A DNA stretch of 64,000 bases from Spirogloea muscicola. Lineage: Eukaryota; Streptophyta; Zygnematophyceae; Spirogloeales; Spirogloeaceae. Both the position numbers and the translations under genes were made by a program. Shown piece after piece: positions 22,076 to 64,000 of the stretch (positions are counted from its first letter, which is position 1; each line of letters starts with the position of its first letter). The stretch covers positions 748,013 through 812,012 of the forward strand of contig WELB01000007.1 of assembly GCA_009602725.1 (NCBI GenBank). The letters run 5' to 3'. Under the pieces are notes generated by a model. It saw only the letters and a program-made list of their open reading frames with translations. It ran no database searches and was not told the DNA's origin.

Positions 22076-26452
<4,377 letters not shown>

Positions 26453-33975: not shown

Positions 33976-34794
33976 GGCGTGTGAGGTGATCCAGTCTGTG
34001 GCTCCAGGTGTGGCGAGGGAAGTAAGTCTTGCCAGGCCCCTTGGATTGTTGTGAATCTCTGGCAGCCTCCTCAGGGGTTACTGAGTGTTTTGTAGCTGCT
34101 TGCTTTCATAGAAATGGTTCCATAGGGGCTAGCTTTAGCGCTTCCCCTTGGCCAGAGAAGACGCCAAAGCACGCAGGGAATCAAGTAGCCACGGCACACT
34201 CAGTAATGAAAGGGTGGCCAGTTTAAGCCAAAACAATGGTCATACAGAGAACGGTAGTGCAATAGTTGGCCTACATGAAACGAAGCCCTATGCTAATGTT
34301 GCTAAGGTAACCGTGTGACGTATGCGGCGAGGGCTGTGAATAGCAGCCCAGAAACAGGCTAATACAGGAATGAACACAGCTCTTCCAGTTTAAGGCAATG
34401 GCTGTGAGAGGCCAGCCCAAACGAATGTACAAGGCGCGAAAAGCGCGAAGGCGCAACAACGATAACTGTGCAAATCTGCAGCGGGGGGACCAAGGCCAGC
34501 CCGGCCTCCGGGCTGGCCGGTGGCCGCGGCCTCCGCCGGCGCCGGAGCCGCCNCCGCCGCCGGCGCCGCCGCGCGAGGCGGCTCGGCACAGTCGTCGCCG
34601 GCCACTGCGCCGCGCTCCTTGAAGAGCCTGGACCGCCGCGCGACCCGCGGTTGCCCGCATTGCTGCGCCAAGCGCGCTAGTCGAGCCAGAAAGCCCGCTG
34701 GTTGGTTGGGCAAGGCCGAGTGGTGGGCTCACGGCGCGGGGCCGCCGAGGCCCCGGGCTGGCAGCCAGGGCCGCGTGGCGGCTGGCTGCCAGCC
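33976..34794. other. Upstream region of the NCL gene
   Basis: The left part (to about 34450) holds degraded element 3' DNA, including GGCTGTGAGAGGCCAGCCC near 34400 and a variant near 34330. From 34480 it becomes GC-rich with CCG triplets and one N (34553), resembling the gene starts elsewhere in the window. An open frame runs from a Met at 34702 into the NCL gene, so part of this DNA may encode its N-terminus. Confidence 0.45.
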
Positions 34795-37700
34795 ATGAGT
34801 ACGACGGCCGGGAGCCAGTGTCGGGAGAGCTACGGCTTCCTGCCATGCTCCAGCACCCTCAAGGGCAGCTGCACGCTCATGCTCTTCTACGGCTACCTGC
34901 TCTTCAAGGGCGCGCAGCTCATCGCCGATGGCTCCGAGCTACTGCTGGAGGTGACTCTCCGACGGCAACCATTTAGCGCCACCGGACCACTGTCAAATAC
35001 TTCGCAGCCAGGGCGGCTTGAGTCAGCCGCATCGACTTCGTCTCCTTGGCTCCTTGCCCAACCCGCAGGAGCCACGATACGGACCATCGAAGCTCGGGCC
35101 ATGACGCAGTAGGTGCAGGTGGATCACACGGCAGTGATCTTGACGGAGCTGTTGTGACGGCCTTGCTGGCAGCAGAGTATGCTAGCGTGATAGACGTTAA
35201 ATAGCACTGAAGCTCAAGTGCCACAGCACGTGTGGTGCACATTGTGCTGCAAAGGTCTCTATGCTGCCTCTACTATAGGTCGTTAGAGGCGTAGTATGCT
35301 CGAGAGAGAAGCAGTTGTGTCAAGTGCTTACCCCTACGACTATGTGCCGTGCAGCTGTCAGAATCAAAGCAGCAAGTGCTGGCTTTGAGGGCGGTATGAC
35401 ACTTGATGTCCCTGACCTGTGCCTGTGCATCGACTGCGTGTTGCAGATCCTTGATCCAGGCCTCATAGGAGGCCTTCTCCTACCTATTCTTGGTGCATTG
35501 CCGGATTGCTTCATCATTGCCATGTCAGGGCTTGGCTCCAGTCCTGATGTTGCTCAGGTCAGCTTTCAAGCACACAGTGCCACTCACGCCTGTTGTCTTC
35601 TGCCCGTACATCTGCCATTGCAACTCCAATACTGCGCTGCTAAGTAGCTATCGTTTAAATATTGAGCATCATTAGGATCTAATATAACATGAGCATGCTC
35701 TGCAAGTTGCTGCCACAGGCACCTGATCGCACCTATCACTCGCATCCTTGTGGGCAAGCTTGACTTATGCAGACGAAGGTCGCAGTAGGCATTGGTACGC
35801 TAGCAGGCTCCACAATCATGCTGCTTACAATAGCATGGGGCGGCTCGCTTCTCATTGGCCGCTGCGACCTGAGAGAGTTGGATGGCCGTTCAATTGATAA
35901 GCAGCTTACTCGAAGCTGTGATTTCGTCAATACTGGGGTTACCACTGACGGGTACGACACAAGGAGAATATACTACTGACATGCACATGACTGCATGTAA
36001 GCTTACAGAAGCTCCTGGCTGTGGCTCCTTGTTTCTGGCTGTTTCATCACAGGTGTGAATGTATGCAATATACTTCGACATATAGCCAGTACCTATGTGA
36101 CAGGGAACAGGGGTCAGAAGTGGTTGCACTGAAGTCCATCTTACATTTCCATCATGTGCAGGTTGACACCTCCCAATGCTTATATCATGCTCGCATCTGT
36201 GTCGCTCTACCTCATTGTTCAGGCTCCCTCGTTGGCAGGGCAGACGCACAATGAGTACACCGTGCTAGCTGCACTTGCTCTTGCATCCGTCGGCCTTGTC
36301 GCATACTGCTGCTACCAGGTACATTGTACTCGCAGTCTTCTTGCTGATCTCAATACCAGTTATTCTCAATTAACAGCAAGTGGATTCAGCATGAAGGCTC
36401 GTCTCGCCATGTAGCTGTGGTCAATGAGAGCTTTGTATTTGTTCTGCGACCAATACTGAGGACCTTCAAGTTTTCAGGTAGTGGTGCCGGAGCTTCAAAA
36501 GCGCCAACTACTGGCTGCTCGAGCCCGCTTTGTCAAGTCCCACAGTATCAAGACTGCCAACATTATGGCAGGTAGTCTCTTAGTTGCTCTGAAGTGGCTG
36601 CTGCAAGCTCTCCCTGACATTTTTTGCTCTCCATTGTCATTGCCCTCACCTGCAAGTCACTCACATTGTCATCCTGCTTATTCTCAACGCCGCTCGCAAA
36701 TTCCACGGCCAGCCCGGCAAGGCAGCTTCAGCAGCCCTGTGCAGCGGGCTGGCCTCCGCCAGCTTCGCCTTGCTTGACACAACTTCACGACTCAAACTCT
36801 CAACACCGTGCTATTCTGCAGTCCAAACTGGGAGAACACTCTTTGACGCAAATGGCAGTGTGGATGACGCATCTCTGATGCACATATTCCACATGTTTGA
36901 CACTGATCACAATGGGCACATTGAGAGAGATGAGCTGACGGCAAGCAATCTGACCATCTCTTTTAGCCTCAAGCCCACCTTCCTTTGAGCTTGGCCACCT
37001 TTGTGATAATCCTCTGTGCCTCTTTACTTGTATGTAATGAAACAACTTATCTACATCAATATAAGTAGTTGGTCCGCCAGGATCACAAACACGAGTCTGG
37101 CTTTGGTGAGGCTGTTGCTTCAGTATCATACATGTCAAGACTAGTTGGTGATGGCATATTATAATCTGACTGGAAGACAGCTACTTCTTCTGTGGCAGGC
37201 GTTGGTGGCGGGGATGACCTTTGGAGCATCAGGCTTTGTTGCACGCGATATAGACGTCCAGCTTTATCTGCAGCAATTCGACATAGATAATTCCAACAGC
37301 ATCACGGCTGACGAATTTTTGTGGGGCATGAAGCAGTGGATAGAACAGGTCCGCTCATTATCATCTCGAAGTGCCCTTTAAACCAGTGTTAGACAGCCTC
37401 AGACTGAGGCGCATCATCATCCTCTTCTGACTGACTCCCACCACCTAAACCTAGGGTCGACCTAATCATGAGGTTCATGCGCATGCAGCATGGTCATGCA
37501 ACTTTGAATGGCTCTTCCTCGGGGAAAATTGAGATCTATTGTGAGCCATCCACGGAGTGTCTGCTTGGGAAGCCACTTTTAGAGGCTGCGCTCGAGGAGA
37601 AGGAGGAAGAGGAGGACGACAAGAAGCAACCACCCACTAAATCCCAGCTTGCTATCGAAGCCATTGTGTACCTATGTCTTGGAAGCTTCTCCATTGGCTT

Positions 37701-38556
37701 GTTCTCAGGTCCAATGGTGAGTTGCAGTCCTCACTATCAGGAAGGTTGACTTCTCGTCCTGGATTGATGGACAGCTAGCATGGCCTCATTCTCTTACAGG
37801 CACATGCTGCATTTTGTTTGTTGCCTGCAGGTGGAGTCCATCTCAACCTTAGCAGAACGCTCTGACATTCCAGCTTTCTTCATCTCATTTATAGTCACCC
37901 CAATGGTGTCCAATGCTAGTGAGCTTGTCTCATCGTTCGCTTTTGCAAGCAAGAGGAGGCAGCGGAACATATCCCTCACATTCGCTCAGGTGACAATCTA
38001 CCATCTTTTCTGACTGAAGCCGCCTGGCAACATGTGTTTCAACTGCAAGCTGCTCAATCTTGCGATGTACATACCTCACACTTAAGGCAGCTGCTCTTCC
38101 TGGATTGGTGGATCGTTTAACCACCTAGTCTGCTTGGATGCATCCTACCTTATTGCACAAATGGCAGGTCTACGGTGCTGTGACCATGAACAACACCCTT
38201 TGCTTGGCTGTCTTTTTACTTCTTGTCTACCTCAAAGACATAGCATGGGACTTCTCCGCTGAGGTGCGCAAGCTCATGCCTGCTTTGCAATCGGATGGGT
38301 GTTTGCTTGTCTAATGGAGGTCAAGTGTAAGCTCAAAACGATAGGGGTCAATGGGGACATGGTGGAGCCTCTTCATGTTGTGTTGGGGGCCATGCTCCTG
38401 CAGGTCACTGTGATCTTTGTGACGGTCATGCTGGTGGGAAGCTTGGGAGCGAGCAGACTTACCTTCAAGGCGTGGCTTGCCTTCCCCGTTCTACTCCTGT
38501 ATCCCTTCTCGCTTGCACTGGTGGCATACCTTGACCAAGTGCTGGGTTGGCACTGA
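34795..38556 (+). CDS. NCL: NCL/EF-CAX-type Na+/Ca2+ exchanger with EF-hands
   Basis: A membrane cation exchanger of the plant NCL type. Exon 1 (34795-34950, possibly extended to a Met at 34702) has CRESYGFLPC and a first membrane helix. Exon 2 (35447-35557) and the next (from about 35769) carry the first alpha repeat, LPILGALPDC with SGLGSSPDVAQ and GIGTLAGSTIMLLTIAWG. Further helices lie near 36165-36318. A cytosolic loop has two calcium-binding EF-hands: DTDHNGHIERDEL near 36900 and DIDNSNSITADEF near 37280. An acidic linker (EEKEEEEDD, near 37590) follows. The second alpha repeat is near 37870-38000 (FISFIVTPMVSNASELVSS), followed by helices to the stop at 38554 (ends VLGWH). In plants NCL moves Na+ and Ca2+ across internal membranes. 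The calcium loops suggest feedback control by Ca2+. Confidence 0.85.
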
Positions 38557-39584
38557 TGCTCCTTGACACCAACTCTCCACCCCTACTCTTTTGAAAGTCT
38601 GTATGCTGGCTGCCCTGCTACTTCAGTGAAGCAAGTGGCGGAGATGTGATGCCATTGATGACGGCCTGGTGGCTATGTCTGCGGTGTTGCCAATCTGATG
38701 AACGGCAGGCCTCCAGCGTCGTCGCTCCTGTAGTACCCTGGAGCATGAAGTCTCTGGCTGCTTGTGAAGTTGCCAGGAGAGCTGGTGAGCCTGTGTACAT
38801 AGCAAGGTCGGAGTGATTCATGCCACTCCAACGGCAGAGCCAGCATCATGACGACAAGCGCGATGCTTCAGCAGAAACCGATTTATGCCAACAAGGGCCC
38901 CCGCCAGGCCTACAAGCGCTGTCTTGTTAAAGCAGAGGGCGACAGCAAAGGAGACACCGGGGAAAGCGGTCTGTGCTGCTTGGCGGCTCGCCGCCTGCAG
39001 CGTGGTGCAGGCCATGACTGCAGTACGAACCCTGGGCCTTGACTGTGCACAGCCATCGCCCTCTGCGTGCTGACCCGTGGTTAATGAGCGGGTCAGCTTA
39101 GCAGCAAAGTGATGTACATCTGTCAACGGGCTTGCCTTGGTACTTGGCCACTGAGGCCCTCCATCACTCACGACACACTCATTCCTCCACTGGAAGACTC
39201 TTTCTTCCCCTTTACCCCTCTCTCCTCCCTCTTTCCGTGCGGACTGCACTGCCAGCTCCGCCTTGGGGAGCTCTTGTTACTGCAGTGCTTAGGGTGTAGT
39301 AATCAGGGCAGCAGCGCCGGCGGAGGTGGCGACGGCGGTGGGCGAGGCTGTGCCCGTGGAGCCTGGAGGAAGGGGATATCCAGCGGACGCTGACAGAGCT
39401 TCCTTTACGCGCACGCCGACAAGCGCTGCCTGGCAGCAGCGGCTGCCGCCTGCCTTCAGTGGCGAACCTTCAGTGGCCCTCGCGGCAGCATGGCCTTTGC
39501 CGAATCCTGTGGCCGTATAGTGGCCGTGTAGTGGCCGCCGCTGATGCTGCCGCCGCCACTTAGCGAAGGCTGCAGTGGCTGGCG
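38557..39584. other. Intergenic region with a family-2 3' piece
   Basis: 39062-39190 is a retroelement family-2 3' end (GACCCGTGGTTAATGAGCGG, then GTGATGTACATCTGTCA and GGCCCTCCATCACT), which matches 51850-51960. A small plus-strand frame at 38848-39042 (MTTSAMLQQKPIYANKGP) overlaps a minus-strand frame; neither is recognised. From about 39310 the DNA is GC-rich and leads into the PHD gene. Confidence 0.45.
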
Positions 39585-42500
39585 ATGCCGGTGGTGGCGC
39601 GGGGCGTGAAGCCGCAACGCCCAAAGCGGCGCCGGCTCGGCGGCGGCGGCGACAGCGCCCGCCGGCGCTGTGGGCTGCCGGCTGCCGGAGCTGCCGCCGC
39701 CCATGACGTGGCAGACGAAGAGGCCTCGCGGGGCTTGCCGCCAGCTGATGGCGAGAAGGCGGCGGCCCGTGCAACCGACAGCGACGAGGGCAGCCTCGCG
39801 GCCGCCGCTCCACCGGCAGAGCCGCGGGACTGCCCACCAGGGAGCGCGCCGACTGCCGAGGAGGACGACGGCGGCGAGGCCGACAGCGGAGTCGATCAGG
39901 AGGAGCCAGACGCCGACGGATCCCGGCGGGCTGGCGAGGGGCCGCGCCGGCCGAGAGCCGCTCTCCAGCTGGGCTCCTGCGTCGACTGCGCCGACCTTGC
40001 TGCGTGCTGCCCAGACGACAACGGCCACCGGAAGGATGCAGTCAGCGAGGCCAAGACGGTGCCGCCAACATCCGAGCAGTCCCCAGCAGAGGCTCTTGGT
40101 GTTGGTGCGGTGCATGGTCTGCCGACCGGTGACATGGCCAACGGGCTTGGCGCTGGGCCCACAAGAGCACTGGTAGAGAGGAGCGCCGGTGCAGCCTGCG
40201 GCGACGAGCTGTGGCGGCCTGGCTGGCCACTGCGTCCCTGGATGGGCACGCTCGGTGCCCACTGGGCGCCAGGCAGCGCTGCCGGCGTACCCAGTGCCGA
40301 GGACCGGCCTGCTGCGTCCCACCCCGGGTGCGTTGGCGACGGTGCAGTGGGGGGGGTTAAGACTGCAACGTGCCGGGTATGCGGCGAGGTCGAGGCCGCC
40401 GGCTGCACGCTCATCTGCGACACCTGCGGCTGCTCCTTCCACTTGCACTGCTTGCAGCCAAAGCTTCAGCACCCACCCGTGCTCGACGAGTGGTTCTGCG
40501 GTGCCTGCAGCATTGTGAGCTCCATCAAGCGAAGATGCTGTCCCTGAGGTTCATCTGCTGGTCTTCTTGCTGCAGTCTGCCGCAAGCATTGCTCCAGAAA
40601 GATGTTGGGACCACTACCATTGTCTCGCCCTCATGTCTGGCGACCTTGCACCTGCACCTGCCGCATCTGCAGGTGAAGGGGCAGTCGGGCAGCGCGCTCA
40701 TGGTTGACGACATGATGGGTTGGGACGCCGCTGCCGTTGCTGGTTGCGTTGCGGCCGCAACAGCGGACCTGTTTGCAGCCGCTAGTGGCAGCGCCAATAT
40801 TGCTGCGCCGGGGAGGGAAGACTGGGGCAGCGGCGGCAGGGAAGGCGAGTGCCTAGATTGTGGGAGTGGCCCGCAGCGCTACCTGTTCCTCGGCGGCTCG
40901 TGTGGCCGCGTCCGCATCGGGCGCATGTGCCAGGCGTCCGTCCCTGCTTGGGCGGAGCAGCAGGCCATGGTCATGGCCGCTGCTGGCAATGAGGGTTCAG
41001 GGTGAGGGCTTGACCCGTGCAGTATCGCTTGCTGGCCTTTCTTAAGTCTATAATGCTCTGGCCGTTCGTACGTCTATAATGCTTTGCAAGTAGTCAAGCT
41101 TTGGACCGGTGGCAGCTGCAAGCAGCAGGTAAGGAGCGTGCTGCATGCCGCCACGACTCAGCCAAGATGTTAATGTTTCTTAGTAGTGCTTAAGCTACAG
41201 TTGGAGGGACCAGCCGCTGGCACGGGTGATTGAAAGGTCTTGTTGCACTGCAAGTTTCCAGATCTGGCTGATGCTCTTTAGTGCTTGCGGGCATTGGCAG
41301 GGCGCCAGCTTTGGGCCAGGAGGCAGAGGTCAGCGTGCAAGAGAAGAAGCGTGAGCTGCGCGAAGCGGTGGAGCGAAATGTGCGTGCTAAATGCCAGAAA
41401 CTAGGCCAGGCCCAGCCAACTATGCAGTGGCTTGCTTGGAGAATGTAGGGGCTTTAGTCAGCACAATGCCGATTGCTTTCTGATGTGAACACTTTCTATC
41501 AGCGTGACTGCTAAAAGCACCGCATCTTGCTTGGCCTGCAGAGAAGATGGCTTGCAGAGGAGCGGAGGCGGTTGGAGCAGCTGAAGGTGGAGCCCCTTGC
41601 TGGGAAGGGTGAGAAGTGGGTGCAGTGCCGCGGTGTCCTCGTGAAGGAGGGGCAGCCCAAGTCCGATGGCCGCCCGGCCAAGCGATCCATCCTCTGTGCC
41701 AAGTGGCGGAGGTTGGCGCAGTCCACCATGCCGACCCGGTCGGTTGTTTAGCAGAAGCCAGCCTGGTCAGACATTTGCAGTTGTTGGGCAACCTATGCAT
41801 GCTTAATCTGCCAGGTTACTTGCTTGCGGTTTGCTTATCTACGGCTCTTTGTATGGCTTGTGCACCAGGGTGCCAGCCACAGTGCAAGTTAGCGACAAGT
41901 GGGAGTGCTTCGACAACGTATTTGCCGATCCTTGGAGGGCGGATTGCAATGTGCCCCAGGTGAGATGTGGTCCATACAAGACCATGGTAAACATCCAGTG
42001 AAATGGCGTGAACTCTTGGGGAGCCCTCGAATGTTCTTGTAATTGTTAGATTGGACAGCCAGCAGTACCCAGTCGAGCTATGCCAATGCTGATCTGGGCG
42101 CAATGCTCAGGAACTGAGCAGCAAGGAGTTGGAAGTCATTCTGAGGGCGCAGGAGGAGACTCGGCAAGCTAAAATGCAGGTCAGTTGCTGCATTTGTCTC
42201 ATTGCATCACCTGTGGGCTCGGCATATCAGCTCACCGCTCATCTGTTGTACCTCTGCACCAGTCTGCTGATACAGCGCTCACAAGCACTAGTGCAATGCT
42301 CCCCTCAGCTGATACAGCACAGAGAGAGGTCAGCATGAGGAGAACAGCTCTCTGTTGGAGCACGCTCTTATTACAGTCTGTGACTTCCATCAGAATGCGC
42401 AAGATCCTCTCTCCTTGTTTGCCAATGCAGGAAAGAGACTGGGAACAGAAGTTCCAGGAGCTGGAGGCCTTTCTGAGAATAGAAGGTCACTGTCATGTCC

Positions 42501-43133
42501 CACGGCGGACTTTCCTCGGCCAGTGGTTGCACTCGCAGCGCATAGATGCCAAGCGGGGCCGCCTGACGCCGCAGCAGAAGGTGTTCTTGCAAAATGGGCA
42601 GAAGAAAGCAGCAGTGGCCAACTCGAACACGCACTTCTGACAATGTTCATACGACATTAAGATGTAAAAATAGAGAATTGGAAAGCCAGGGCCAACATAT
42701 TACAAGGCAAGGACTAGCAGGCCGCCTGGTTGCAAGCTCCCAGCCTTGGTAGGCCTGGCCAACCCTTTTGTTCAGTCAGTCTTGCTGTGTATTGAATTCG
42801 TATTTGGTGGTTCTGCAGGCAAAGCTGGAAGGAGTGGGCACTGTGATGGACATCCAGGATGCGCTGTGGGAGGAGGAGTTCCAGGCGCTCAGGGCATTCC
42901 AGGTCAAGCATGGGCACTCCGACGTGGCCCGCCAGCTGGCAGCCCAAGAGAGCCCGCGCTCGCGCGAGGACGCCCAGCTGGCGCAGTGGGTGCGCGCTCA
43001 GCGGCTGGGTGCGCGGCAGCCCTTCAAGGGGAAGCGGCAGCTGCAGCGCATCTGTCGCCTGCTAGAAGCCGATTTTGACTTCACTGTGCTTCCGCAGTCT
43101 TCGTCCCCGCCTCGTGCACATCTGCAGCAGTAG
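39585..43133 (+). CDS. PHD finger, CW-type zinc finger and helicase-associated domain protein
   Basis: A probable chromatin-linked nuclear protein. Exon 1 (39585 to about 40513) begins with a basic stretch (QRPKRRRLGGGGD), then a long acidic, low-complexity region, and ends in a PHD finger: CRVCGEVEAAGC, LICDTCGCSFHLHC, WFCGAC. A later exon (about 40674-41005) has ECLDCGSGPQRYLF. A helical exon near 41300-41430 has EKKRELREAVERNVRAKCQ. A CW-like zinc finger is split over two exons: KWVQCRGV, CAKWRRLAQ near 41600-41720, then DKWECFDN and WRADCNVPQ near 41900-41960, with an insertion between the first cysteine and the KWRRL part. Two helicase-associated (HA) domains follow: EAFLRIEGHCHVPRR with LGQWLHSQRIDAKRG near 42430-42590, and RAFQVKHGHSDVARQ with LAQWVRAQRLG near 42880-43010. 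PHD and CW modules read histone H3 methylation; no helicase core is seen. Confidence 0.7.
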
Positions 43134-43971
43134 GATCTGCCGGCTCACACATGATTGTATTCTGTCATTCATGTGAGCTCAATGGGCTTCACTTGGCTCC
43201 GTATGGGTCATTTGTGGTCGACCGTGTCCCTCTATGCCTGCATTTTCATGAGCTACAACCTTACTTGTAGGGCATGAGATCACCCTGAGATGATCGAAGA
43301 GCAGTAGCTGCAGGATACAACTCAGCTCCCGCTCTTCTATTACTTTTGATTGCTGTGGCCCGTTGCTGCAGGATGATCGAGTTGTAAGATTTGCAAGTGG
43401 ACTTTGTTAAGGATTCAACGTATCCGCAGCCAGCTGCCTTAAAATCTCTCTTACAGGAGCCACCAATTCTGGGAATAGGGCAACAAGCAACCAAGTCCAA
43501 CTTCTTTGGCCTTGGAGGTGCATTTACTTGAAGCCTTTGTTTCCAGATTTGAAGAGAACTTGAAGAGGCATGTGTGCTTCTGACAAGTGTCTTTGAATAA
43601 AGAAAGTCGCCCACTATCGCACTAAGATGCTTCCAATGTAGGTTAATGACGACGATAAGTGGATAAGAATGGCATGGCCAGCGTGGTAGTCTAGGCGAGC
43701 CGCTGAAAGTCCATCCTTTCAAGCGGCTCACAGCAATGTCTACAGTCATCAAGAGGCAGAGCTTGCCCCACTGAAGAAAGAAGTGGCTCCCATAAGGAGG
43801 CAGTGCCCCACTGGCCGAAAGTTGGGCGATCGAGGCAGGCAGGTGTGGAGTGCAGGATAGCATACAGTGCTTGATCCTGGCTGTGCTCGGCTTTGGTTAC
43901 CTCTCACGCCATCTCTCCATCAGTGGACAACTTCATTGCTGTCTTGCTTCTCCCATACCAAGTCTGCTGTG
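43134..43971. other. Intergenic region between PHD gene and NRPS gene 3' ends
   Basis: The two genes converge here. A 200-residue minus-strand frame (43863-43261) has no recognisable domain and could be 3' untranslated DNA of the NRPS gene, or hold its last exon if the donor-like site at about 44117 is used. No repeat is seen. Confidence 0.35.
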
Positions 43972-46900
43972 TTACCTTTGCTGGAAAGTGCTCCTACCAT
44001 TTGGGCTGGCCGTAGGTCGGCTCCGAAACCACTTCTTGCCACCGGATGTCTCCAAACGAGAGGCTCCAGAAAGTGGGTACGGAGCTTGGCGGGTGGAGGC
44101 AAGCACCTGCTTGTCCAGAGTGAGCCTGTCACCTGCCACTGCACTTTCCAGCAGTGCAGAATAATGACGGCACATGGCAGTCATGAAGCTCCTCTCCAGT
44201 ATGTCAGCCTGCCATAACAGAAAGATATGCAGGATAAGAGAGGTGTTTATCCCAGCCAACTGAGTAGGTCCATTAGCTGAAGATAAGTGCTATGAGACGT
44301 TGCATTAGCTTGGTCAACAGCCTTGCAGCAAGCATCCAATGTACTAGGCAGGCCATCAGACGATATTAGTCAAGGACTCCACACACATCGGACGGCACTC
44401 CGTGCGGGTAAATGACAATGTGCTACGGGCATGCATAGTGGCCAAGAGCATGTACTAGAACCTACGGGACGGCCATAAGGCTACCAGAAGATAGTAGGTG
44501 AGGCTTTCACCTGGTAAACCATTCGTCCAACAACTGAGCCGTCCTGCTCGGGCCGCATAAGCAAGGAGACCGCAGACAAGGACGTCTCTCCCTCCCTCAA
44601 CCATGAGACATCCATGTCATACTCTCCCTTGAGTTCATCATCAAAGTGTAGCCTCCAGGGAGCAGCATCCCTGCAAGCACAGAACATATCGAGTAAGAAG
44701 CTCAACAACGACGCCCTCCGCTTCACAGGTGCAAAGAGCAGCCTGCCAAGACTCAAGAAGATGCGCAGATGTTGACAGACTGTCTGAAGAACTTACTTCA
44801 ACAGACAGTGAAGAGCCCAGTCAATGGCTAGTCAGGACTGCTTGCAACGCATCTGCTCACAGATTCTGAACAGTTTGTGAAGATGAGAATTGCAACAATT
44901 CTTTGTCCAGCCAGATGAATGAAGGACACGTACGTGCCAGGCTGGAGGAAGTTGAAGTAGGCCGAGATGATAGCGTCGCGTGAGAGGTCAGGCTTGGACA
45001 AGTGCGTGGCAATGAGGCGGAAGGTAGTGCGCTGGTGCTCGATGGCAGCCAACATGCCCTCCTTCACCTGAGCCAACATGTCCAGATAATCCAGCCCGGG
45101 TGCCGCTGCTCGAGCAGTGGCGTCCATCTGTGCCACCTCCGTCAGTATCGGCCTCACATCTGCAAGGTGCCCGACAACACCTTGCAGCGGCGCAATCGGC
45201 CGCCGGCTGACCAGTGTTTCAACCAAGATGCGGCTCTGGCGTGACCAGAGGTGCAAGGTGGAGTTGAAGAGGGCCAGGAGTGCCATGTTGAGTGTCGCGC
45301 CTTGCTGCCGGGCCAGCCCCTCGAGCTGCCACCGTGAGGACGGCAGGATCACGAACTTGAGCCACGCGCCCCTCCAAGGCAGCGCCACTGAGCGGTTCTG
45401 CCGGGGGCTCAGCCGCAGCGTTTCAGGGACTCTCCCAATGGTTGCTCGCCAGAATTTGAGCTCGGCATCCCGACGGCTGCCCGCCAAGTCTGCCACTTCC
45501 CAGGCGACGTAATCGTTATAGGCCGGCACAGGCGGTAGGCCCTCCAGGGAGCCGGTTCGGTACACGTAGGGCAGCTCCCTGTACATGATGGCAGCTGAGA
45601 TGCCATCGCAGATGAGGTGGGAGGCTGTGATGACCAGCACGTGCTGCTGCTCGCCATCGTCGCTGCTGATCCCGCCAATCAGCGTGGCACGGAACAGCAG
45701 CCCCCGCGGGGCATTCATGTCAAACGGCTTGAGGGCCGCATCAATGGCGGTGCTCAACGCCGCCACCTTGTCGCCCGCCGATGCAAGCGAGAGGTCCGTC
45801 TGGTGCAGCCGGAAGGGGGTGTCCAGCTGGTCCACCTGGGACACGCAGTCGAACACGGAGTCCAGGTGGCGCAGGAATAGGGGGCCAGCGGCGCCAGCCA
45901 ACGCCGCCGCCAGGCCGCCGCAGCAGGACGGAGCGGGCCCAGCTGCCGAAGCCTCGACCGCGGACTCGACCGGGGATGCGCCATTGTTGCCCCACGTCTT
46001 GAGGGCCATGCGCAGCACACGAGCCTTCAGACCCTTGGACTCGACGGCAAAGCGCAGGCGCAGGGCCTGGTGGCGCTTCAGGAGCAGCTGGAATGCGTGC
46101 TCCAGCCGGGTCACGTCGACCCTGCCCCGCAGCCGCCACACGTCTGACGAATCCAGCAGCTCTGGCCTTGGAACCACACGCTTGACCAGGTAGATCATGA
46201 GCTGCGCCTCCGAGAGCCGCGCCCGCCGCGGGGGGCTGTCTCCCGGCGGCCTGGCCACCAATTGGCGACCACCATTGAGAAAGCTCTTGCCGGTGTTATG
46301 GCCCTTGAGGTCTTTGTCCTCCTCCTTGGCAACCTCCTCCTTCGCACCTTTTGCGTCTGGTTCTGCGGCTGCTGCTGCATCTGTCGCAACCCGCCTTTGC
46401 CTAAGCGCGTCCGCAAGCCCAGAAACCGTGGGGTTCTCGAAAAACTCGCGGATAGTCAGGACCGGAGCTGAGGAACGCTCGGCGGCAGCAGCCCCACCCT
46501 GCGAAGCGGACTCCTGGTCGACCAAAGCCTGTGGGAGCCGCGCGATAGCCTGCGACGCTGTGAAGGAGTTGCCGCCCAGGTCGAAGAAGTTGGAAGCTGG
46601 CCCCAGCACGTCAGCGACGCCTCCGCCACTCGGCAGCACGGCCGCAAAGACTGCGGCGACGGCGCGCTCCTCTGGCTGCTGCAGCAGCTGCTGAGCTGCC
46701 CAGGCATTGCTATTGTCGCCACCGGCTCCACCTTCGGCGCCTCCTCTGCTGCCTCCAGCTGCCTCAAAGCGGAAACTTTCTGGCGGGGGCTCTGGCAGGA
46801 ACTTGCGGTCCACTTTGCCGGAAGCTGTGTAAGGGAGCTCGTCCAGGATGACAAAGGCTGCCGGCATCATGTACGATGGCAGCCGTTGTCGGATGGCATC

Positions 46901-49900
46901 ACGCACGGCCCTGGTCACAATGTCCCGGCTTGTCGGGCCACCCAGCCTGATCTTGAGGTAGAGCGCCAGGTATGGCGGCCGGCCATCGTCGCCCCCTGGT
47001 CGCAGCACGCCGACGCAGCGCACAACCCCTTCTACACGGCTCGCTACATCCTCAATCTCTGCCGGCTCAATGCGGTGGCCCCTCACCTTGACCTGCACTC
47101 ATCAGCCAGATCCTCAATTAGCTAATGCAATTTGCCTGGCCTGATGCTTGTAATAAGATCTTGTAGTCAGCAACAGGCAACTGCGACACACCCACAAATT
47201 GCAGAGGACATTGCAAGCCCAAGAGAGGTAGTGTCACCAGCTTCTGCAGCTGCATGAACAGACCTGAAAGTCAATGCGGCCGAGGAATTTGATGCGCCCG
47301 TCTGCAAGCCAGCGACAGCGGTCGCCCGTGCGGTAGAGAACACGATCGTGCGGCCCAGTGCTGAAAGGGTTCTTTTGGAATTTCTTAGCTGTCAGGTCAG
47401 GTCGCTTCAGATAACCTCGCGACACGTGCACTCCAGCAATGCACATCTCCCCTGGAACCTCCACCGGCAGCAGCTCAAGGTGCGGACCTAGTACATAAAA
47501 CTGCACACATGTACAAATTGACCCAAGGTAAATAAGGCCTGATGCAGCTGCAATGCTAAGCTTTTGAAGCCAAGTACTTCACTATCTGCAGATTCTACCA
47601 TGCTCTGTACATGACAGGCAGGGCCTAGACAACAAGCATTGCAATGACTGCAGGTTTCAAGACAGTAGGTATCAACGTGTCCTTTGGCACACTGACATGA
47701 GCTCCCGGCCATGGTCGGCCAAGATTGTCCTCCACAGGCTGGTGCGGACGCCACACAGCTGAGCAGGCTGCGATGGCGCACTCTGTCGGAGCATAGTGGT
47801 CAACAACCGTCCTGCCCGCCAAGGTCCACTTCCTGCAAAGTGCTCGTGGTAGTACCTCTCCGCCCGTGGCCAGCCAGCGCAGGGAGGGCGCCAGATCAGG
47901 CTCTAGCAGCGTCATGACAGTAGGAGTAAGCACCACTCCTGTGACGTTGAACTTCCGGATGAAAGCATTGGCGTCAGTTAGCAGGTCCTCCTGCACAGGG
48001 TTTGACAGCAGAAGCCGTGAGCCCATGCTCTGGCCCACTGGTTTGAAAAGCAGACCTGCCATTGCACCCCTGAACCATGATCTGCTAGCTTGCAAGGAGC
48101 ACTGGGATGCTTCCCTTTCTCATAAGCTGGAGACATTGTGATGCCACTGCAAGCTTGACAATTTGACAATGCCATGTAAAACCTGCTCACCTTGGGGCAT
48201 ATGGCCACGGCAGCCCCGACGTCAAAAGCACAGTAGCAGTCCATTGCGTGCAGATCGAAAGTGGACGCGCTCAGCTGCCCGCGCACGTCGTTCTCCAATG
48301 GGGGCAGCAGCTCACGGAAAGAGTGCGCCATGTTCACGACACCCCTGTGTGTGACTAGCACTCCTTTAGGTGCTCCTGGCAGACTCAGTGCAAGGATGAG
48401 GTCAGTAACTGGCACATATCTTGAGCCTAGTCATGGCTAACGCAATGAATTGCAACCAAGATAAGAGGCCCTCTCCTTCACACTGATGCAGCTGCCGAGC
48501 GAAATCTTAGGGCATGCAGTCAGGATATGAATCAGTAACTAATAGCTGTGAGGCCTGAAGGCGCAAAATTAGATGTGCAGGATTTGCAACATTGAGCTCT
48601 ATTAGACTGTCTCCGCGAGCACGTTAGAGCAGCTGTTATTGTGCATGGCTTCCTGCGATGGTACACTTGACAACTGACCAGTGGAGCCGCTCGTGAAGAG
48701 CACGTAGCAGATGCTGGAGCCGGCCGGATAAGCTGCAGCAATGCGTGCCGCATCAATCACGTGCCCCTGCAGGCTCTCAGTGCTCACTAGGCGGACGCCC
48801 TCCCAGCCATCGGCCCACTGGAACGTGCCAGCGCTCTCCCGGTTGCTGAGAATAATGCGCAACTTCGTCTGCTCCAAGAGCTCCTGTGACCTCAGCTGCG
48901 GGTGCGCGGGGTCCAGGGGCAAGTACGCACGGCCGCTCATCATCGTGCCCAGCATGCACGCCACCCAGTCGATGCACCGGTCCATGCCGATGGCCACCAC
49001 GTCCTCCTGCCGGTAGCGAACTTCCTCAGAGGGGAGGCCGAGCGTAGCAATCAGGAAGCTCGCAATCCCCTGCGCTCGCTCGTGGAGCTCGCGATAGGTT
49101 ATGGACGCCCCGTGCTGCAGAACAGCCACCCTGTCTGGCCACGTGCGCACTGCTCGGTTGAACAGCTCGACGAGGTTGTCATCCACATCGGCCTTGGCTT
49201 CGACTGGGAAGGCTGCTCCCTGCCGCCGCTGCTCCATGTCGCCTTCGGGGTCTTGAGCCTGGAGCCACCTATGCAGCCGCTCTGGCGTCATCTTCTGGTG
49301 CAATGCGCGGGCCACCTTCTGGCCAGAGAACTCCACCTTCACCAGCTGCCGCTCCTCGGCGCAGAGCACATCCAGCCGATGCACAGGTATTGCAGCCACC
49401 TTGACGGCAGGCAAGGATGCCAGGGACTCCAGCAGGGATTGGAAGTTGGCTGCGAGCCGCCGTATGGAGGCGGCTGCATATGCCTGCATGCTGAACAACC
49501 ACGTCAACTCCAGGGAGCCGTCCTTCTTGAGAGCCGAGCGCAGCACGAGCTCACGCCCGTTGAGGCCGCCCTTGCTGGTGACACCAGGCTGGCACTCGAG
49601 ATCTGTGAAGTCAAAGAGCGCCTCCGCTCCCGTGGCCCACGCGTCCGTGTCTGCACAGTCCTCTGCTTCATCTCTTGCAGATGATGGTGTGGATTGGCGG
49701 TCCATCCCAGCCAGCAGCTGCGCAGCGACCTGCGACACCACAATGGCAAAGGGTGCCGCGCCCTCCTCGCCAGCATGCCATCCATTTTCCGCAGACGGTA
49801 GTGCAGTTGAAGGACGGTGGCTGGCAGTGGGCTCGAACGAGACCCTAACGGGCAAGTCCTCTACATCGCCGCCCTGCCAGGCCTCCTTCCTCGGCTCCGG

Positions 49901-50422
49901 CCCTCTCTCGCCGTTTGCATCCTGCAGCAAGGATGTGTCATGGGAAAAACCATTGACTGCCAGCTGCACCGTCACATGGCCGTTCTCCATGGCAAGAGCC
50001 TTGAGGATGGTGGGGTCGGTGGGCTGCCGAGCGTGGCCATTCAGCAGCTTATGGAAGGGGCCGACATGGCCGTTGACGGGCTTCTGCGCTGTCACCGTGA
50101 CGGCCTTGGCCAAGCCGCCGAGGCCATTGACTGCCGCTGCCGGTCGGCGGCAGGCCAAGGTCGCATTCACAGCGACGCGCTGCTCGGTGGGGTTATAACG
50201 ATGCAGCAGAGTGACGAAGGCCGAGAGGAGGACGAGTGGGAGCCCCTGCGCGTCGTCGATGCCGGCGTCCGAGCCAGTGTGGGTGGTGAGCTTGGCTCCA
50301 AGCCGCGATATCGCGGCAGCACTCTGAGCGGGCACCGTCGAGGACGTCTCGCCGAACGCCCGCGGCTGGACGCCATTGTCCACTCCCGGCTCCGCAGGCG
50401 CTGCGAAGGGAAGCAGCGCCAT
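43972..50422 (-). CDS. Non-ribosomal peptide synthetase: partial C, A, PCP, C
   Basis: Seven exons join in frame: 50422-48679, 48375-48191, 48029-47697, 47500-47264, 47092-44934, 44670-44511, 44208-43972 (5055 nt, 1684 residues). Domains in order: the C-terminal half of a condensation domain (GLPLVLLSAFVTLLHRY; floor-loop part near residues 270-350), interrupted by low-complexity sequence. An adenylation domain spans about 410-930 with VLFTSGSTG/APKGVLVTHRG (split by a phase-1 intron), STFDLHAMD (keeps the Asp that holds an amino acid's amino group), HYAPTE, YRTGD, GRIDFQVKVRGHRIEPAEIE and TASGKVDRK (catalytic Lys). A carrier domain has FFDLGGNSFTASQA near residue 1007, its Ser taking phosphopantetheine. 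A full C-terminal condensation domain has SHLICDG near 1305. No thioesterase or reductase is seen. The last exon may splice further at about 44117. The start is uncertain because a gap lies 215 bp upstream; the amino acid used is not predicted. Confidence 0.85.
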
Positions 50423-50636
50423 GCTTGCCAGCGGCGGAGCCCTGCCAGAATCATCTGCGGAAGCTGGGGCCGATGGATCCGGCAGCGGCCATGTCGGATC
50501 CGGCTCCCTCGGCGCTCAATGCCACAGGCAACCATGGCTGCCGCTGCGGGTGGCGCCGCGACGCTCGCTCAGTGGTCTCGCCGGCGGGGCCGCAGCAGCG
50601 ACGGCAGCGGCGTCGGCGGCGCGGGCCGCGGCGGCG

Positions 50637-51169
50637 NNNNNNNNNNNNNNNNNNNNNNNNNNNNNNNNNNNNNNNNNNNNNNNNNNNNNNNNNNNNNNNN
50701 NNNNNNNNNNNNNNNNNNNNNNNNNNNNNNNNNNNNNNNNNNNNNNNNNNNNNNNNNNNNNNNNNNNNNNNNNNNNNNNNNNNNNNNNNNNNNNNNNNNN
50801 NNNNNNNNNNNNNNNNNNNNNNNNNNNNNNNNNNNNNNNNNNNNNNNNNNNNNNNNNNNNNNNNNNNNNNNNNNNNNNNNNNNNNNNNNNNNNNNNNNNN
50901 NNNNNNNNNNNNNNNNNNNNNNNNNNNNNNNNNNNNNNNNNNNNNNNNNNNNNNNNNNNNNNNNNNNNNNNNNNNNNNNNNNNNNNNNNNNNNNNNNNNN
51001 NNNNNNNNNNNNNNNNNNNNNNNNNNNNNNNNNNNNNNNNNNNNNNNNNNNNNNNNNNNNNNNNNNNNNNNNNNNNNNNNNNNNNNNNNNNNNNNNNNNN
51101 NNNNNNNNNNNNNNNNNNNNNNNNNNNNNNNNNNNNNNNNNNNNNNNNNNNNNNNNNNNNNNNNNNNNN
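50637..51169. other. Assembly gap (533 N)
   Basis: The gap is flanked by GGC/CCCGCC-rich DNA just upstream of the NRPS first exon. It may hide the NRPS promoter or more N-terminal exons. The flank to about 51440 is GC-rich and has no recognisable gene. Confidence 0.9.
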
Positions 51170-52330: not shown

Positions 52331-54407
52331 TTTTTGGAAGAAGCTGCTCATTGTCTGCGTGCCCATGCAGAGGCATTGGTGCTTGGTTGCGTGTTCCATC
52401 CACTGGCCCGCTCCAACCAGCGCCTGGACCATCATCAGCCCGTTACTCCCGCTGTGGGACCGACTTGCGGAGTTGTCCTCGTCAAAGGTGCAATGAGTGC
52501 GCGTCCTCGCCTGCTTGCCTTCAACCCAATCCTTCCTGCGATTTGCCTTGCTTAGGCACTCGCAGAACCGGCCACCGCGCCTTCATGTGCACCACGCGCC
52601 TTCTCTTTCTTCACGACGAGTTGGCGCGCTCAGGCTAAGGCGGCCGAGCACGCAGACCATTGTCCGTAGGCACACTTGTTACGTTGGCCATCACTGCTCA
52701 CGACCTTCTGCAACCCAATGGCTGCCGTTGATGCTGTGGCAACACGTCACATAATAGCACGGCAGCAGGAGCCATCCGCTATCAGCCATGCTATATTTCC
52801 TCATATACATGCATAGGCACACACTGATTGCATCTTTACATTTTGGCGGGCACCTCCTTCTATTGACTCAGCAAGCTTCTATCTACAAGACTGGGGTCTA
52901 AAATTTCGGCATTCCCAGAAGGCCTTCTATTAGGGTCTACTCGCGCTTAAAAGGAGATTGCTTGTTTGGAAACTTTACCAATAAAACACCAACAAGCTCA
53001 CCACTTTCTGCCAAGGGGCCACAGTAACACCGCCATGCCTGGCTGCCAGCGAGGCAACTTCTCCCCTGCTTCCAGCTTGCGGTTGCTAAGTAGGATACAC
53101 TGAGTCGATATCCATAGCAGCCCCTTGTTCTGCCAAGGAAGTTGTGCGTTCATGTTGGGGTTCCCGTTGACTATCTGTCCACACGTACTGACCTTGCTAT
53201 TAACAGTCATCGCTCCTTAGATATTTGTGCTCTGGGAAAATTCCATTACTCTCCCAGAGTTGACACAGTGGCCGCCCAGACTGTGGCAGAACTGGATGCC
53301 GGGCTGGAGCCCCCGTGGACCATACCAAGAGATCCTTGGGGGCGGTGTGAGAGAGACCCTGGCAAGCCCTCACCCTCAGGCACTTGGGGATTTGGTTTTG
53401 CAATATGTGCTGCTCCCGTCTATCCCTTTGTCTTTCCTTGAGTTCTTGCACACCTTGATGGACGTACCCTTCTCATATCTGCATTTCGCGCTGAGGCTTG
53501 GCAATCTGACGCCGTCTATAGGTGCAATGCAAATTCAAGAAGACGAGCCGAACATGTTCTGTAAGAAGTGCCTGATGGCTGTCTATTTCTACTTAATTGC
53601 CTATGCAGGTAGATCTGCATTCATGAGTTTGCAATAAGATTGTGGCAGTGCTGCTACTGTGGCAGCAAAGAGGTGGACTACTCTTGGTCAAACATCCCAG
53701 ATGGACTACTCATTTGCCAAAATGGTAGCAGCACGACAATGATGTCATTGCCATCTTGTGTAACTAGTCTCATGTCTCCCAAGTAGCCCACCGCTTGATT
53801 GCTGCACGTACTTGCGACTTACTTGCGATCTCAGACTTAACGAGTTTTGTCCTACATCTCACTCTTGAGATCCATGATACTTATGCATTTTTGTTGCTGT
53901 GCGCCGTACTTACCTGGCTTCACTGTCAATGTCATCAATAAGGTCGCAAGTGTTGTAAGTGATACCTGAAGTCATGACATGGGTCTCGTGCCAGAAGCAG
54001 CAGCTGAAGCGCGGCCTGCCCGCGGATGCACCGCAAAGCAGCATTTGCGTCAACCCAATCTGCTGGGCAATCAGCAGGCCATATGGCTTCACCTTCGTCA
54101 TGTTGCCGTGAGGATGCTCACGGCCTCACTGGGCCTCTACTTCGAAGCGGTGTGTTCTACTCATGGAGACGTTTGCTGGCAAGATTTAATGGCGCGATTC
54201 CGCTAAGAAAAAGGTTCCGCCCAATAGGGCAGCCACAAACGGAACCCCGCGGTTCCCCGGCCCCCTCGCCTCCGCCATCATCCCCCCCGCCGCGCCCTGC
54301 GGCGCAGGGCGCGGCGAGGCTGGCGCGCGCCCCTCCGGCGAAGCCCCACCGCCTCCGCCGCCGCAAGGCCCGGCCAACGCCGAGAGCTCGGCCGCGTCGC
54401 GGCCGCT
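52331..54407. other. Gene-poor stretch with one retroelement tail
   Basis: 53040-53102 encodes NFSPASSLRLLSRIH and a stop, the family tail motif. Open frames at 53142-53441 and 53227-53637 are unsupported by any domain or splice pattern. The rest shows nothing to about 54180, where the GC-rich leader of QCR10 begins. Confidence 0.4.
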
Positions 54408-54793
54408 ATGTCGTCGCTCCTGCGGCCGCTGTTGCGCGCCATCCCGCCGGCCATGCGCCCGCAGTACGAGGACGTGAGCGGCGCCGTGCTGTGGGGCACC
54501 ACCGCCGCCGTCGGGGCCCTGTGGCTCGTCCAGGTGTGGGCCTAACGTCTAGGGTTTAGGGTTTTTGGGTTTAGGGTTCCTCCCCACTGCGCCCCGCGGA
54601 GCGCCTGCCGGCCTCCAGCAGGGTGCCCGAGACGAGGTCTGGCTTGCCAAGGGCCCGTTGCTTCGGACGCCATTGCGCCTCTGGAGCTCACACCACTGCT
54701 GTTGTGCTTCGTCGCCCGCAGCCATTTGGGTGGATCAAGGACCAGATCTACCCACCGAAGGGGGACGACGAGGGGAAGAAGGATGACTCCTGA
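54408..54793 (+). CDS. QCR10: Cytochrome bc1 complex subunit 10 (QCR10)
   Basis: Two exons, 54408-54533 and 54722-54793, joined in phase 0, encode 65 residues. QCR10 is a small single-helix subunit of mitochondrial complex III. The pattern SGAVLWGTTAAVGALWLVQ followed by PFGWIKDQIYPP matches plant QCR10 (AAAAGAIWVVQPFGWIKKTF), including the helix and the PFGWIK motif right after it; the intron falls exactly between Q and P. The start MSSLLRPLLRAIPPAMRPQ is basic, as expected at a matrix-facing N-terminus. The tail is charged (DDEGKKDDS), an extension relative to plants. Confidence 0.85.
54550..54578. repeat. TTTAGGG-like telomeric motif in intron
   Basis: AGGGTTTAGGG, TTTTTGGG and TTTAGGG occur in a row within the QCR10 intron, two exact plant-type units plus variants. 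A single GGTTTAGGG also occurs near 7967. Confidence 0.8.
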
Positions 54794-55526
54794 CGAGGAG
54801 CGACAGCAGCAGTGGGGAGCTCACTGCTGATGCAGACCCTGCTAGACCTTCAACCAGTGCCTGACTTGCAGCTCCTATACCTAGCTCGACGACCTTGCGA
54901 GAACAGCCATGAGCAGGAACTGCTTGTGAACAATGAGTCCACGGCAGAATGATGCCCGTGGCAAAAGGCTGCCCACAAGGAAGCCCACATACTGCTGTGA
55001 CCAAAGTAAAAGTCGTGCAGCTGGTACCAATCACGTGTTGTGAGACTTATCTGGTGTCTCTGTAGATGTGCTTGCACTTTCAATCGAGAAAATGCTCAGT
55101 GAGCCTGAGGAGCTCAATGTCTCACCCTAGATATGTCAGGCGCTCATCCAACCAGTCGACTCTGGCACTAAGCTAATAAACCGTCGTTGTCTTTGTGGCT
55201 ATACACAAAGCTTAATTAGAGGCATCCACATGAACACAAGTGAAGAGGTTCGCATCCGTTGAGACACCCTTCAATATGAAAACCGAGCAATGCAACTGCT
55301 GCGCTCTGCTCTGCTAACCAGGTAATCTCCTCTGCTATCAGATTCGGTGAGGGGCCAAGACCGCTGATGTAGGCAGTGCTGTGAGATTATGCCGCCCTGA
55401 TCATGGTAGGAGGCGATCATAGCAACATCCAATAGCAGTTGTATGGCCAGGGACGGAAAGCATGTAGGATGTCTGCAAACGGGGAAGAGAGCAAAGGCAA
55501 GCAGGGCATGGGTGCCAGGTAGCAAT
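54794..55526. other. Intergenic, convergent 3' ends of QCR10 and DUF427 gene
   Basis: About 730 bp with no supported gene, repeat or RNA; moderately AT-rich, as expected of untranslated and spacer DNA. Confidence 0.45.
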
Positions 55527-56386
55527 CTACCAGCCCCAGGAACCTGGGGCACCCTTAACAGGACCAACAATGTCAGAGGTGACCCAGCCACCATAGAACC
55601 CGCCTGGTTGCGGCTGTGCCTTCTCATCTCCAACATAGCAAGCATCCATGGGGCTTGCATAGAACGCAATGTAGCCCTGCATGGGCTTGTATGAAGAAGT
55701 GATGCTCTCGTAGCTCCAGCCAACTTTAGGAGCTGATTTATCCCCTACCTATAAGCAATAATCAGCACAACTGGCAGTCAGTACTAGCTAATTCAGCTGA
55801 GAGTCCCATGAGATAGTTGACTGAGCTGTAGGGGGGTATTTTGCCCGTCTGTACAGCCTTACTGAGAACGTGCCTCAAAGGATCTGAGGACTTACCTTCA
55901 CAGTCCAATAAGTTGCATTGCCCTTCCACTCACAAAATGAGCTACCTGCTGCCTTGGTTACGTATGTCATCTGAATGTCTTTGGGAGGTAGGTAGTACAC
56001 AGGGGGGTGGCTTGTCTCCAGAATTCTGTGGCGACCCACACAGGCAAGTGGCAAGTTGTTAGGATTCTCACAAGGACATGCTTGGATGTGTGGAAGCAGA
56101 AGGTCGTGAACTCCTCAATGCAAATTGTATAAGAGCAGCAGCTGATCGTATTTGAGACCTTCTAGCGTCCAGGAACAAAGAGAGTGACAGCAGAGCAGCG
56201 GGTTATCCAGGTTCCAGATTATCCAACTCTTCAAGCTTGCCTGAAGGCCTCAGTAGTGTCTGCTATGGTCTCGCCATTGAAGATTATCCTGATGCGCTTG
56301 TTGACCCTCTCCATGCGGGGCGGTCGAGGGTAGTCCCATACAGACTCCTGGCCTGGCTTCGGCTCGACGCGCTGGACTGGCGCCAT
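55527..56386 (-). CDS. DUF427 domain protein
   Basis: Three exons, 56386-56241, 56025-55896 and 55748-55527, give 165 residues in one frame. The protein matches the DUF427 family: ESVWDYPRPPRMERV, RIIFNGETIADT, LETSHPPVYYLP, CEWKGNATYWTV and SYKPMQGYIAFYASPMDA. DUF427 proteins are small beta-rich proteins of unknown function found in bacteria, fungi and algae. The first intron starts with GC (AG/GCAAGC) and ends CACAG; only this join keeps the family sequence in frame (phase 2, restoring Arg). The chosen start follows the family; an upstream Met at 56578 in the same frame is less likely. Confidence 0.85.
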
Positions 56387-57526
56387 AGCCCCGGCCACGC
56401 TTAGCCGCCTTGTGGTCACGTGTGGAGGGAGGGACCTTGTAAGTGGTCTGTCACAGTCATAGTCCCAACAAGGACCAGTATATGTACGTGTCACGAGAGC
56501 GAGTATGAGCAAAGATCCAGGTCCAGCTAAGGACTCGTTGAGACTCCACTGCAGCCGTGCGCTTTGCAAGCCCACCATTGGAGAAAGCGTGTTGAGCTGC
56601 AGCTACTCTCGTTGGCTTGGCCTTGAAGGGCGCGGGCCCAACTGCAAAGCAGCCAGCTGTTCAGAAGCGGAGAAACATTGACAAAAGTCGGGAAGGTGCA
56701 GACCTCTTGGTGCTGAGGAGCAAGCCGCCGGCCCCAGGCCTGCGAGACAGGCCGGCCCGAGCGAGCTCTGCTGCAATCCTACGGGCCTTGGCAGCTGCAC
56801 CAGCTGTGGAGCAGCCGAGCCCAGCGGGCGATGAGGTGGGATAGAGGACGCGAGCTGCGGCCGGGACCGCCAGCATGCTCGCCAGCGCGGGGTCGCGGCG
56901 GCGGGCGCGGCGGCGGCGCCAGAAGGTGGAGAGACGGCGATCAGGCGCTGTGACGTTTCCACTGACATATGTGAGGCCCTCTTGACGGATGAACGAGAGA
57001 GCAACTATTCTTCCAATGGAAGGCAGTGGCAAGAGGAAAGGCGCGGTGCGAAACGAAAGGGAGGCCAAATGAAGCACATACTCTGTGAGGCAAGCAGACG
57101 AAGCAGCCTTCGCGAGAGTTGAGCAGCTTCGCGAAGCAGCTCTGCAAAGGGGGCGAGGCTGCGTAGGTCCGGCCCACAAAGGAGGGCCCAGTAGAAGAAA
57201 GCTCGGCCAGATTGACGGGTGGCTGTGAGAGGCCAGCCCAAAGAAGAAGAAGAAAGCCCGAAGGTATGGACCAAGTCTGAAGGAGCCGGATGGAGCCAAA
57301 AATGATGCGGCCGGGCGGCGCCCCAAGATGGAGGCCATCTGACAGTGGCGCCCACCCGCTTAGAAGAAGAACTGGCACTCCCAATCGGGGCAAGGGCAGT
57401 GAAAAGCCAGCCCGAAAAGAATTGACAAAGGTTCACAGGGGCCAAATGACGGAGGGGCATTAAAAGCGCTAAGCAGCTACGAAGGGGCCTGAAGATGCTA
57501 TGTCAGAACGGGGGAGGATGGACCAC
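56387..57526. other. GC-rich flank plus retroelement 3' pieces
   Basis: 56600-56930 is GC-rich with open frames on both strands (plus 56617-56844; minus 56880-56660); neither is recognised. 57200-57470 holds element 3' DNA: GGCTGTGAGAGGCCAGCCC, then AAGTCTGAAGGAGCCGGA and GGGGCAAGGGCAGTGAAAAG, in the orientation of the minus-strand fragment that follows. Confidence 0.4.

Positions 57527-63238: not shown

Positions 63239-64000
<762 letters not shown>

Follow-up and report, generated by a model that had tools for sequence, protein, structure and literature searches.

The window analysed here is a 64,000-nucleotide stretch of the Spirogloea muscicola genome (contig WELB01000007.1 of assembly GCA_009602725.1, positions 748,013 to 812,012; G000:C7:748013-812012 in our numbering of a genome of 153 Mb in 471 contigs). 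It carries on its minus strand, at 43972..50422, a spliced gene for a non-ribosomal peptide synthetase (NRPS), which we confirmed by splicing and translation, by Pfam searches of the spliced protein and by comparison of three copies of the gene. The initial annotation had placed the gene at exactly these coordinates without giving a strand; its count of seven introns was wrong, while its mention of six junctions was right. Exon 1 (48679..50422) begins with the ATG at 50422 and encodes residues 1-581 plus one base, covering an N-terminal half condensation domain, a linker and the start of the adenylation domain, in which exons 2 (48191..48375), 3 (47697..48029) and 4 (47264..47500) also lie. 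Exon 5 (44934..47092) encodes the AMP-binding_C region, the carrier domain, a second linker and most of the terminal condensation domain; it is followed by exon 6 (44511..44670), defined by splicing and the three-copy comparison, and by exon 7 (43972..44208), which carries the TAA stop ending at 43972. The six introns (intron 1, 48376..48678, 303 nt; intron 2, 48030..48190, 161 nt; intron 3, 47501..47696, 196 nt; intron 4, 47093..47263, 171 nt; intron 5, 44671..44933, 263 nt; intron 6, 44209..44510, 302 nt) all have GT-AG ends, span 161-303 nt and have a G+C content of 0.46-0.50, compared to 0.54-0.65 in the exons. The reading frame stays open across all six, and the joined exons form 1685 codons with a sole stop at the end, giving a protein of 1684 residues.

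A Pfam search of the spliced protein returned four families above their cut-offs: AMP-binding (PF00501, E 1.2e-58), Condensation (PF00668, E 1.2e-45), AMP-binding_C (E 1.5e-6) and PP-binding (PF00550, E 7.8e-5). This bears out the adenylation (A), carrier or thiolation (T) and condensation (C) domains that had been annotated, which follow the order half-C, A, T, C. The A domain (46793..49162, minus strand, about residues 421-933, exons 1-5) contains LFTSGSTGAPKG, YRTGD and TASGKVDRK, scored above the cut-off of the amino-acid adenylation model TIGR01733 and matched tyrocidine synthase 1 and LgrA. In the T domain (46337..46618, minus strand), the Pfam match covers residues 992-1022 and includes the motif LGGNS, whose Ser1009 (46565-46567) is the phosphopantetheine serine; we estimate that the domain ends at about residue 1085. 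A T-to-C linker of 115 residues, low-complexity by eye, leads to the terminal C domain (44089..46135, minus strand, about residues 1153-1646, exons 5-7), with a C1-like LSEAQ at residue 1126 just ahead of it. The Condensation match is accompanied here by the catalytic second histidine, His1325 (45617-45619), within the sequence SHLICDGIS. The earlier statement that the key motifs are in place is not wholly correct, as the active site of the terminal C domain reads SHLICDG instead of HHxxxDG.

A search of the same genome with the Condensation family, followed by alignment, revealed two more full copies of the gene, on contigs C1 and C4. The three copies are collinear and intron-bearing and sit on contigs of 2.3, 1.6 and 1.5 Mb, and about 16 kb is collinear between the window and the fetched 30 kb blocks of C1 and C4, with more shared blocks past a gap. 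Pairwise identity among the copies was 0.92-0.98 in exons and 0.77-0.88 in introns, and the GT/AG ends were kept at 18 of 18 introns (six in each copy). Substitutions were concentrated at third codon positions (13, 8 and 59 at the first, second and third positions of the A domain between the window and C1 copies). Ratios of non-synonymous to synonymous substitution (dN/dS, by NG86) were 0.15-0.18 over the whole protein, 0.12-0.14 over A, 0.02-0.09 over T and 0.04-0.08 over the terminal C domain, compared to 0.34-0.48 over residues 1-395. The stop position is kept in the C1 copy. Because of the contrast between exon and intron identity, the kept splice sites and the low dN/dS over A, T and C, contamination is strongly disfavoured and a pseudogene unlikely. 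We regard the conservation of the copies together with dN/dS as strong evidence of function, drawn from the genome sequence itself, and the gene as probably working. A degenerate or non-functional NRPS relic might be suspected from the halved N-terminal C domain, the SH in place of HH, the shifted C-terminus of the C4 copy and an isolated fragment on another contig, C150, with just the N-lobe of a related C domain. Yet all three frames are open, that of C4 being shifted only at the extreme end, the 18 splice-site pairs are intact and A, T and C have dN/dS values of 0.02-0.14; we consider a relic improbable.

The introns and the three copies also argue strongly against contamination, and the evidence supports, as first proposed, a resident nuclear gene and not a bacterial contaminant. 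Its neighbours, open reading frames with helicase-associated repeats and a PHD finger, fit the ordinary nuclear setting that had been described. We searched bacterial collections, plasmid records and the window's own genome. A single pattern scan supplied the bacterial set: of 113 stretches, 93 were confirmed and 80, from 79 loci, were kept. Over aligned columns, the A domain was at most 40% identical to 209 bacterial A domains, themselves picked by patterns derived from the query; the best cross-phylum match was equally low for only about 2% of these 209. No plasmid record among 2449 matching ones reached 60% identity, the best of the 15 listed being 36%. In trees, the A and C domains formed long branches held by no starred (well-supported) group. 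A recent bacterial acquisition, or contamination, could appeal to the fact that the best matches in the searched collections are bacterial, but these collections hold no eukaryotic genomes; against it stand the introns, the three homeologs on large contigs and the low identity to both the nearest bacterial A domain and the plasmid records, and we judge it very improbable. The possibility of an ancient transfer, raised in the initial annotation, found neither support nor contradiction in the trees, which were run on the bacterial set. These data do not tell when or in which direction a transfer might have occurred, because the trees leave the gene unplaced and the one eukaryotic genome searched was the window's own. 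The data would fit an old resident gene.

The first of two features that make this gene most unusual is its half C domain; the other is the SH-type terminal C domain. The C-lobe of a C domain (49382..50233, minus strand, residues 64-347) sits within an N-terminal stretch of about 395 residues that the initial annotation had passed over. A C-domain profile built from the fetched bacterial loci matched residues 64-105 weakly (model positions 218-258 of 414) and residues 225-347 (positions 275-412), with an insertion of about 120 residues inside the lobe; Pfam and NCBIfam detected just the end of it, weakly. The second part of this C-lobe had dN/dS of 0.50-0.66, unlike the terminal C domain, and the lobe is under relaxed constraint. 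Upstream searches for the catalytic N-lobe that would carry HHxxxDG found nothing in 13.6 kb of the window, in about 11 kb at C1 or in 10.8 kb at C4 (4.6 kb of it Ns). The order in the available sequence is A-T-C with no complete upstream C, and a gap lies upstream.

That assembly gap (50637..51169) starts 215 nt ahead of the ATG, with a gap at the matching place in the C1 and C4 copies, and the 5' end is uncertain because a run of Ns lies just upstream in all three. The gene could extend into the gap, with its first C domain whole, and would then serve as an ordinary C-A-T-C elongation unit within a longer assembly line. The position of the gap in every copy is in keeping with this, as is the 93-98% identity among copies of the 214 nt before the ATG, level with that of the exons. 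The gaps measure 533 Ns in the window, 427 and, in the C4 copy, 4581, and we estimate that the missing N-lobe would occupy roughly 570-650 nt. The size of the C4 gap, and the narrow margin by which the window's falls short, also speak for a continuation upstream. An N-lobe hidden there is unlikely, as gaps of 533 and 427 nt are too small if their sizes are right, although that of 533 nt is only slightly so. The reading frame is moreover closed at 50516 in the window, so that any upstream exon would need to be spliced in; no N-lobe lies in the sequence searched beyond the gaps; and the second part of the C-lobe does not share the constraint seen on the terminal C domain. We therefore hold a complete C-A-T-C unit to be unlikely.

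At the other end of the protein, we compared the active site of the terminal C domain with 259 bacterial C or E segments: HH was present in 177, another first residue in four (one of them SH), and the simple pattern was unmatched in 78. In a tree with bacterial domains, the terminal C domain formed a long branch of 1.98 and joined no starred set. A fold comparison placed solved C domains of several types near one another. Among solved structures, HtmB2-CT (8z0q and 8z0r; a "special condensation domain" of an NRPS according to its PDB listing) was the second-best match by sequence to the stretch that starts at the active-site motif and runs to the end (E 4.4e-15). The terminal C domain might be of the fungal CT kind, cyclising or releasing the product of an enzyme that works iteratively and alone to make a small cyclic or oligomeric compound. 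It is the last domain of the enzyme, as a CT domain would be. Fungal CT enzymes carry upstream modules, which the present gene does not have. SHLICDGIS fits the SHXXXDXX(T/S) motif by which PMC10212144 defines the fungal LCL-A subtype, an SHxxxDG is described for a fungal CT domain in PMC6518819, and the 115-residue T-to-C linker resembles the longer linkers that PMC10212144 attributes to CT-like types. Among the fungal CT, FUM14 and LCL-A types treated there, LCL-A thus shares SHxxxDxxS with our domain, and CT its terminal position and long T-C linker. However, this likeness is one of motif and description, the tree having been built with bacterial domains; several solved C-domain types are close together in the fold comparison, and the linker looks low-complexity. 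We find a CT-type role doubtful.

Joining an amino acid to an external acceptor is the best-supported reading, and we moderately favour the view that this is a resident nuclear green-algal single-module NRPS (half-C, A, T, C) acting as an A-T-C conjugating enzyme, with its N-terminal half C a remnant. The A domain would activate one alpha-amino acid with ATP, and the aminoacyl group would be loaded onto the phosphopantetheine arm of Ser1009. Through His1325, the terminal C domain would then join this group to an acceptor with an amine or a hydroxyl, be it a free molecule or one borne by another protein. The N-terminal half C may be decaying, its ancestor having worked inside a longer assembly line. 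At positions that we take to be those of GrsA, the residues of the A-domain pocket read DLMVAGHIAK, in which the Asp and Lys that presumably hold the amino and carboxyl groups of the substrate are present. As read, the pocket does not allow the substrate to be predicted. Several points weigh against a working conjugating enzyme: the pocket code is a good fit to no substrate, having Val at the position of the Lys in pockets for acidic residues; the carrier domain scores barely above its cut-off (PF00550, 23.3 vs. 20.8 bits); Ser replaces the first His of HHxxxDG in the terminal C domain; the gap 5' of all three copies could hide an N-lobe; and a one-base difference in the C4 copy, close to the C-terminal end of exon 7, shifts the frame there and leaves no stop at the same place. 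A gene that is short, strongly conserved and limited to a single module is much easier to express or knock out than one with many modules.

There is a eukaryotic parallel in Ebony of Drosophila, an A-T enzyme with a single module that couples one amino acid with an amine, although a canonical C domain is not what serves Ebony as acceptor domain. The stand-alone A-T-C logic would be that of AmbB of Pseudomonas aeruginosa, which we take to have no N-terminal half C, unlike the present gene. As described in PMC8968710, AmbB shares with our protein the A and T domains and an aminoacyl-donating C domain with the second histidine, whose loss abolishes AmbB activity, but it has HHxxxDG where the present C has SHLICDG. 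The two C domains are 18-20% identical in the aligned part (structures 7x0e, 7x0f and 7x17).

NRPS genes had been called rarely described in green algae, and the literature agrees: they are rare but already known, and the present gene is not without precedent. PMC4661987 reports NRPSs in 7 of 32 algae, including 2 of 12 chlorophytes (Chlorella variabilis and Coccomyxa subellipsoidea, with one C domain counted in each). PMC7073580 reports them in 3 of 22 green algae (one in Chlorella variabilis, two in Parachlorella kessleri and three in Cymbomonas), with none in Coccomyxa. The survey in PMC4661987 demanded HHxxxD, which is absent here, as the terminal C has SHLICD and no N-lobe was found for the N-terminal C; compared with the Chlorella and Coccomyxa enzymes by survey counts and not by sequence, the present gene differs in this respect and is an NRPS in the broader sense (A, carrier and C) only. 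No characterised green-algal NRPS product was found among the matches listed in the open-licence literature. More tentatively, we see it as possible that one-module A-T-C conjugating enzymes form a green-algal lineage of their own, apart from the NRPSs of bacteria and fungi. Its upstream C domain would be wearing down to a structural half, its terminal C would have gained the SHxxxDGxS form independently, and its aminoacyl conjugate would be important enough to keep all three subgenome copies under purifying selection.

Searching its own genome with the whole A-T-C protein gave 29 matches among the best-scored candidates, including the exons of the three copies. At C150 (186041-187237, minus strand), several exons code for a C-domain N-lobe only, which has the motif WSHMISDG and shares 40-50% identity with the terminal C of the window. 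The 30 kb fetched around this fragment yielded neither a second half nor an A domain, 20 kb of C158 gave no match, and the expected counterpart on C220 falls in a run of Ns; the fragment looks like a relic. Another adenylation-domain gene (C99:525000-534999, minus strand, and C298:11517-12044) is 36% identical over part of A; in five open reading frames of the C99 locus, Pfam detected only AMP-binding and AMP-binding_C. Within the window, a separate AMP-binding gene (5206-7170, minus strand, acyl-CoA-synthetase-like), also in three copies, matches the A-T-C protein weakly, as do its two homeologs. Within 1 kb past the 3' end of the NRPS gene, two helicase-associated repeats lie on the opposite strand (42173-43133, plus strand), and a PHD finger lies at 39564-40547 (plus strand).

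The genome looks triplicated. Window positions 34567-50636 and 54177-56994 have collinear copies on C1 and C4, mostly 85-93% identical, the C150 segment is copied on C158 and C220 at 83-84% identity, and one RNA polymerase domain was found in two sets of three contigs; counter to this, the ribosomal gene S3Ae was found on one contig only. The alga is possibly a triploid hybrid, each set amounting to about 51 Mb. Window positions 22493-22616 and 63325-63446, beside Ns, match the single-base run that borders the gap 5' of the C4 copy, which places several gaps at simple repeats. The same assembly also holds, in keeping with a green-algal host, a plastid-like contig (C392:1-10000, G+C 0.34) with an rpoC1-like frame of 684 residues, whose neighbouring long frames read, by eye, as rpoB, rpoC2 and rps2.
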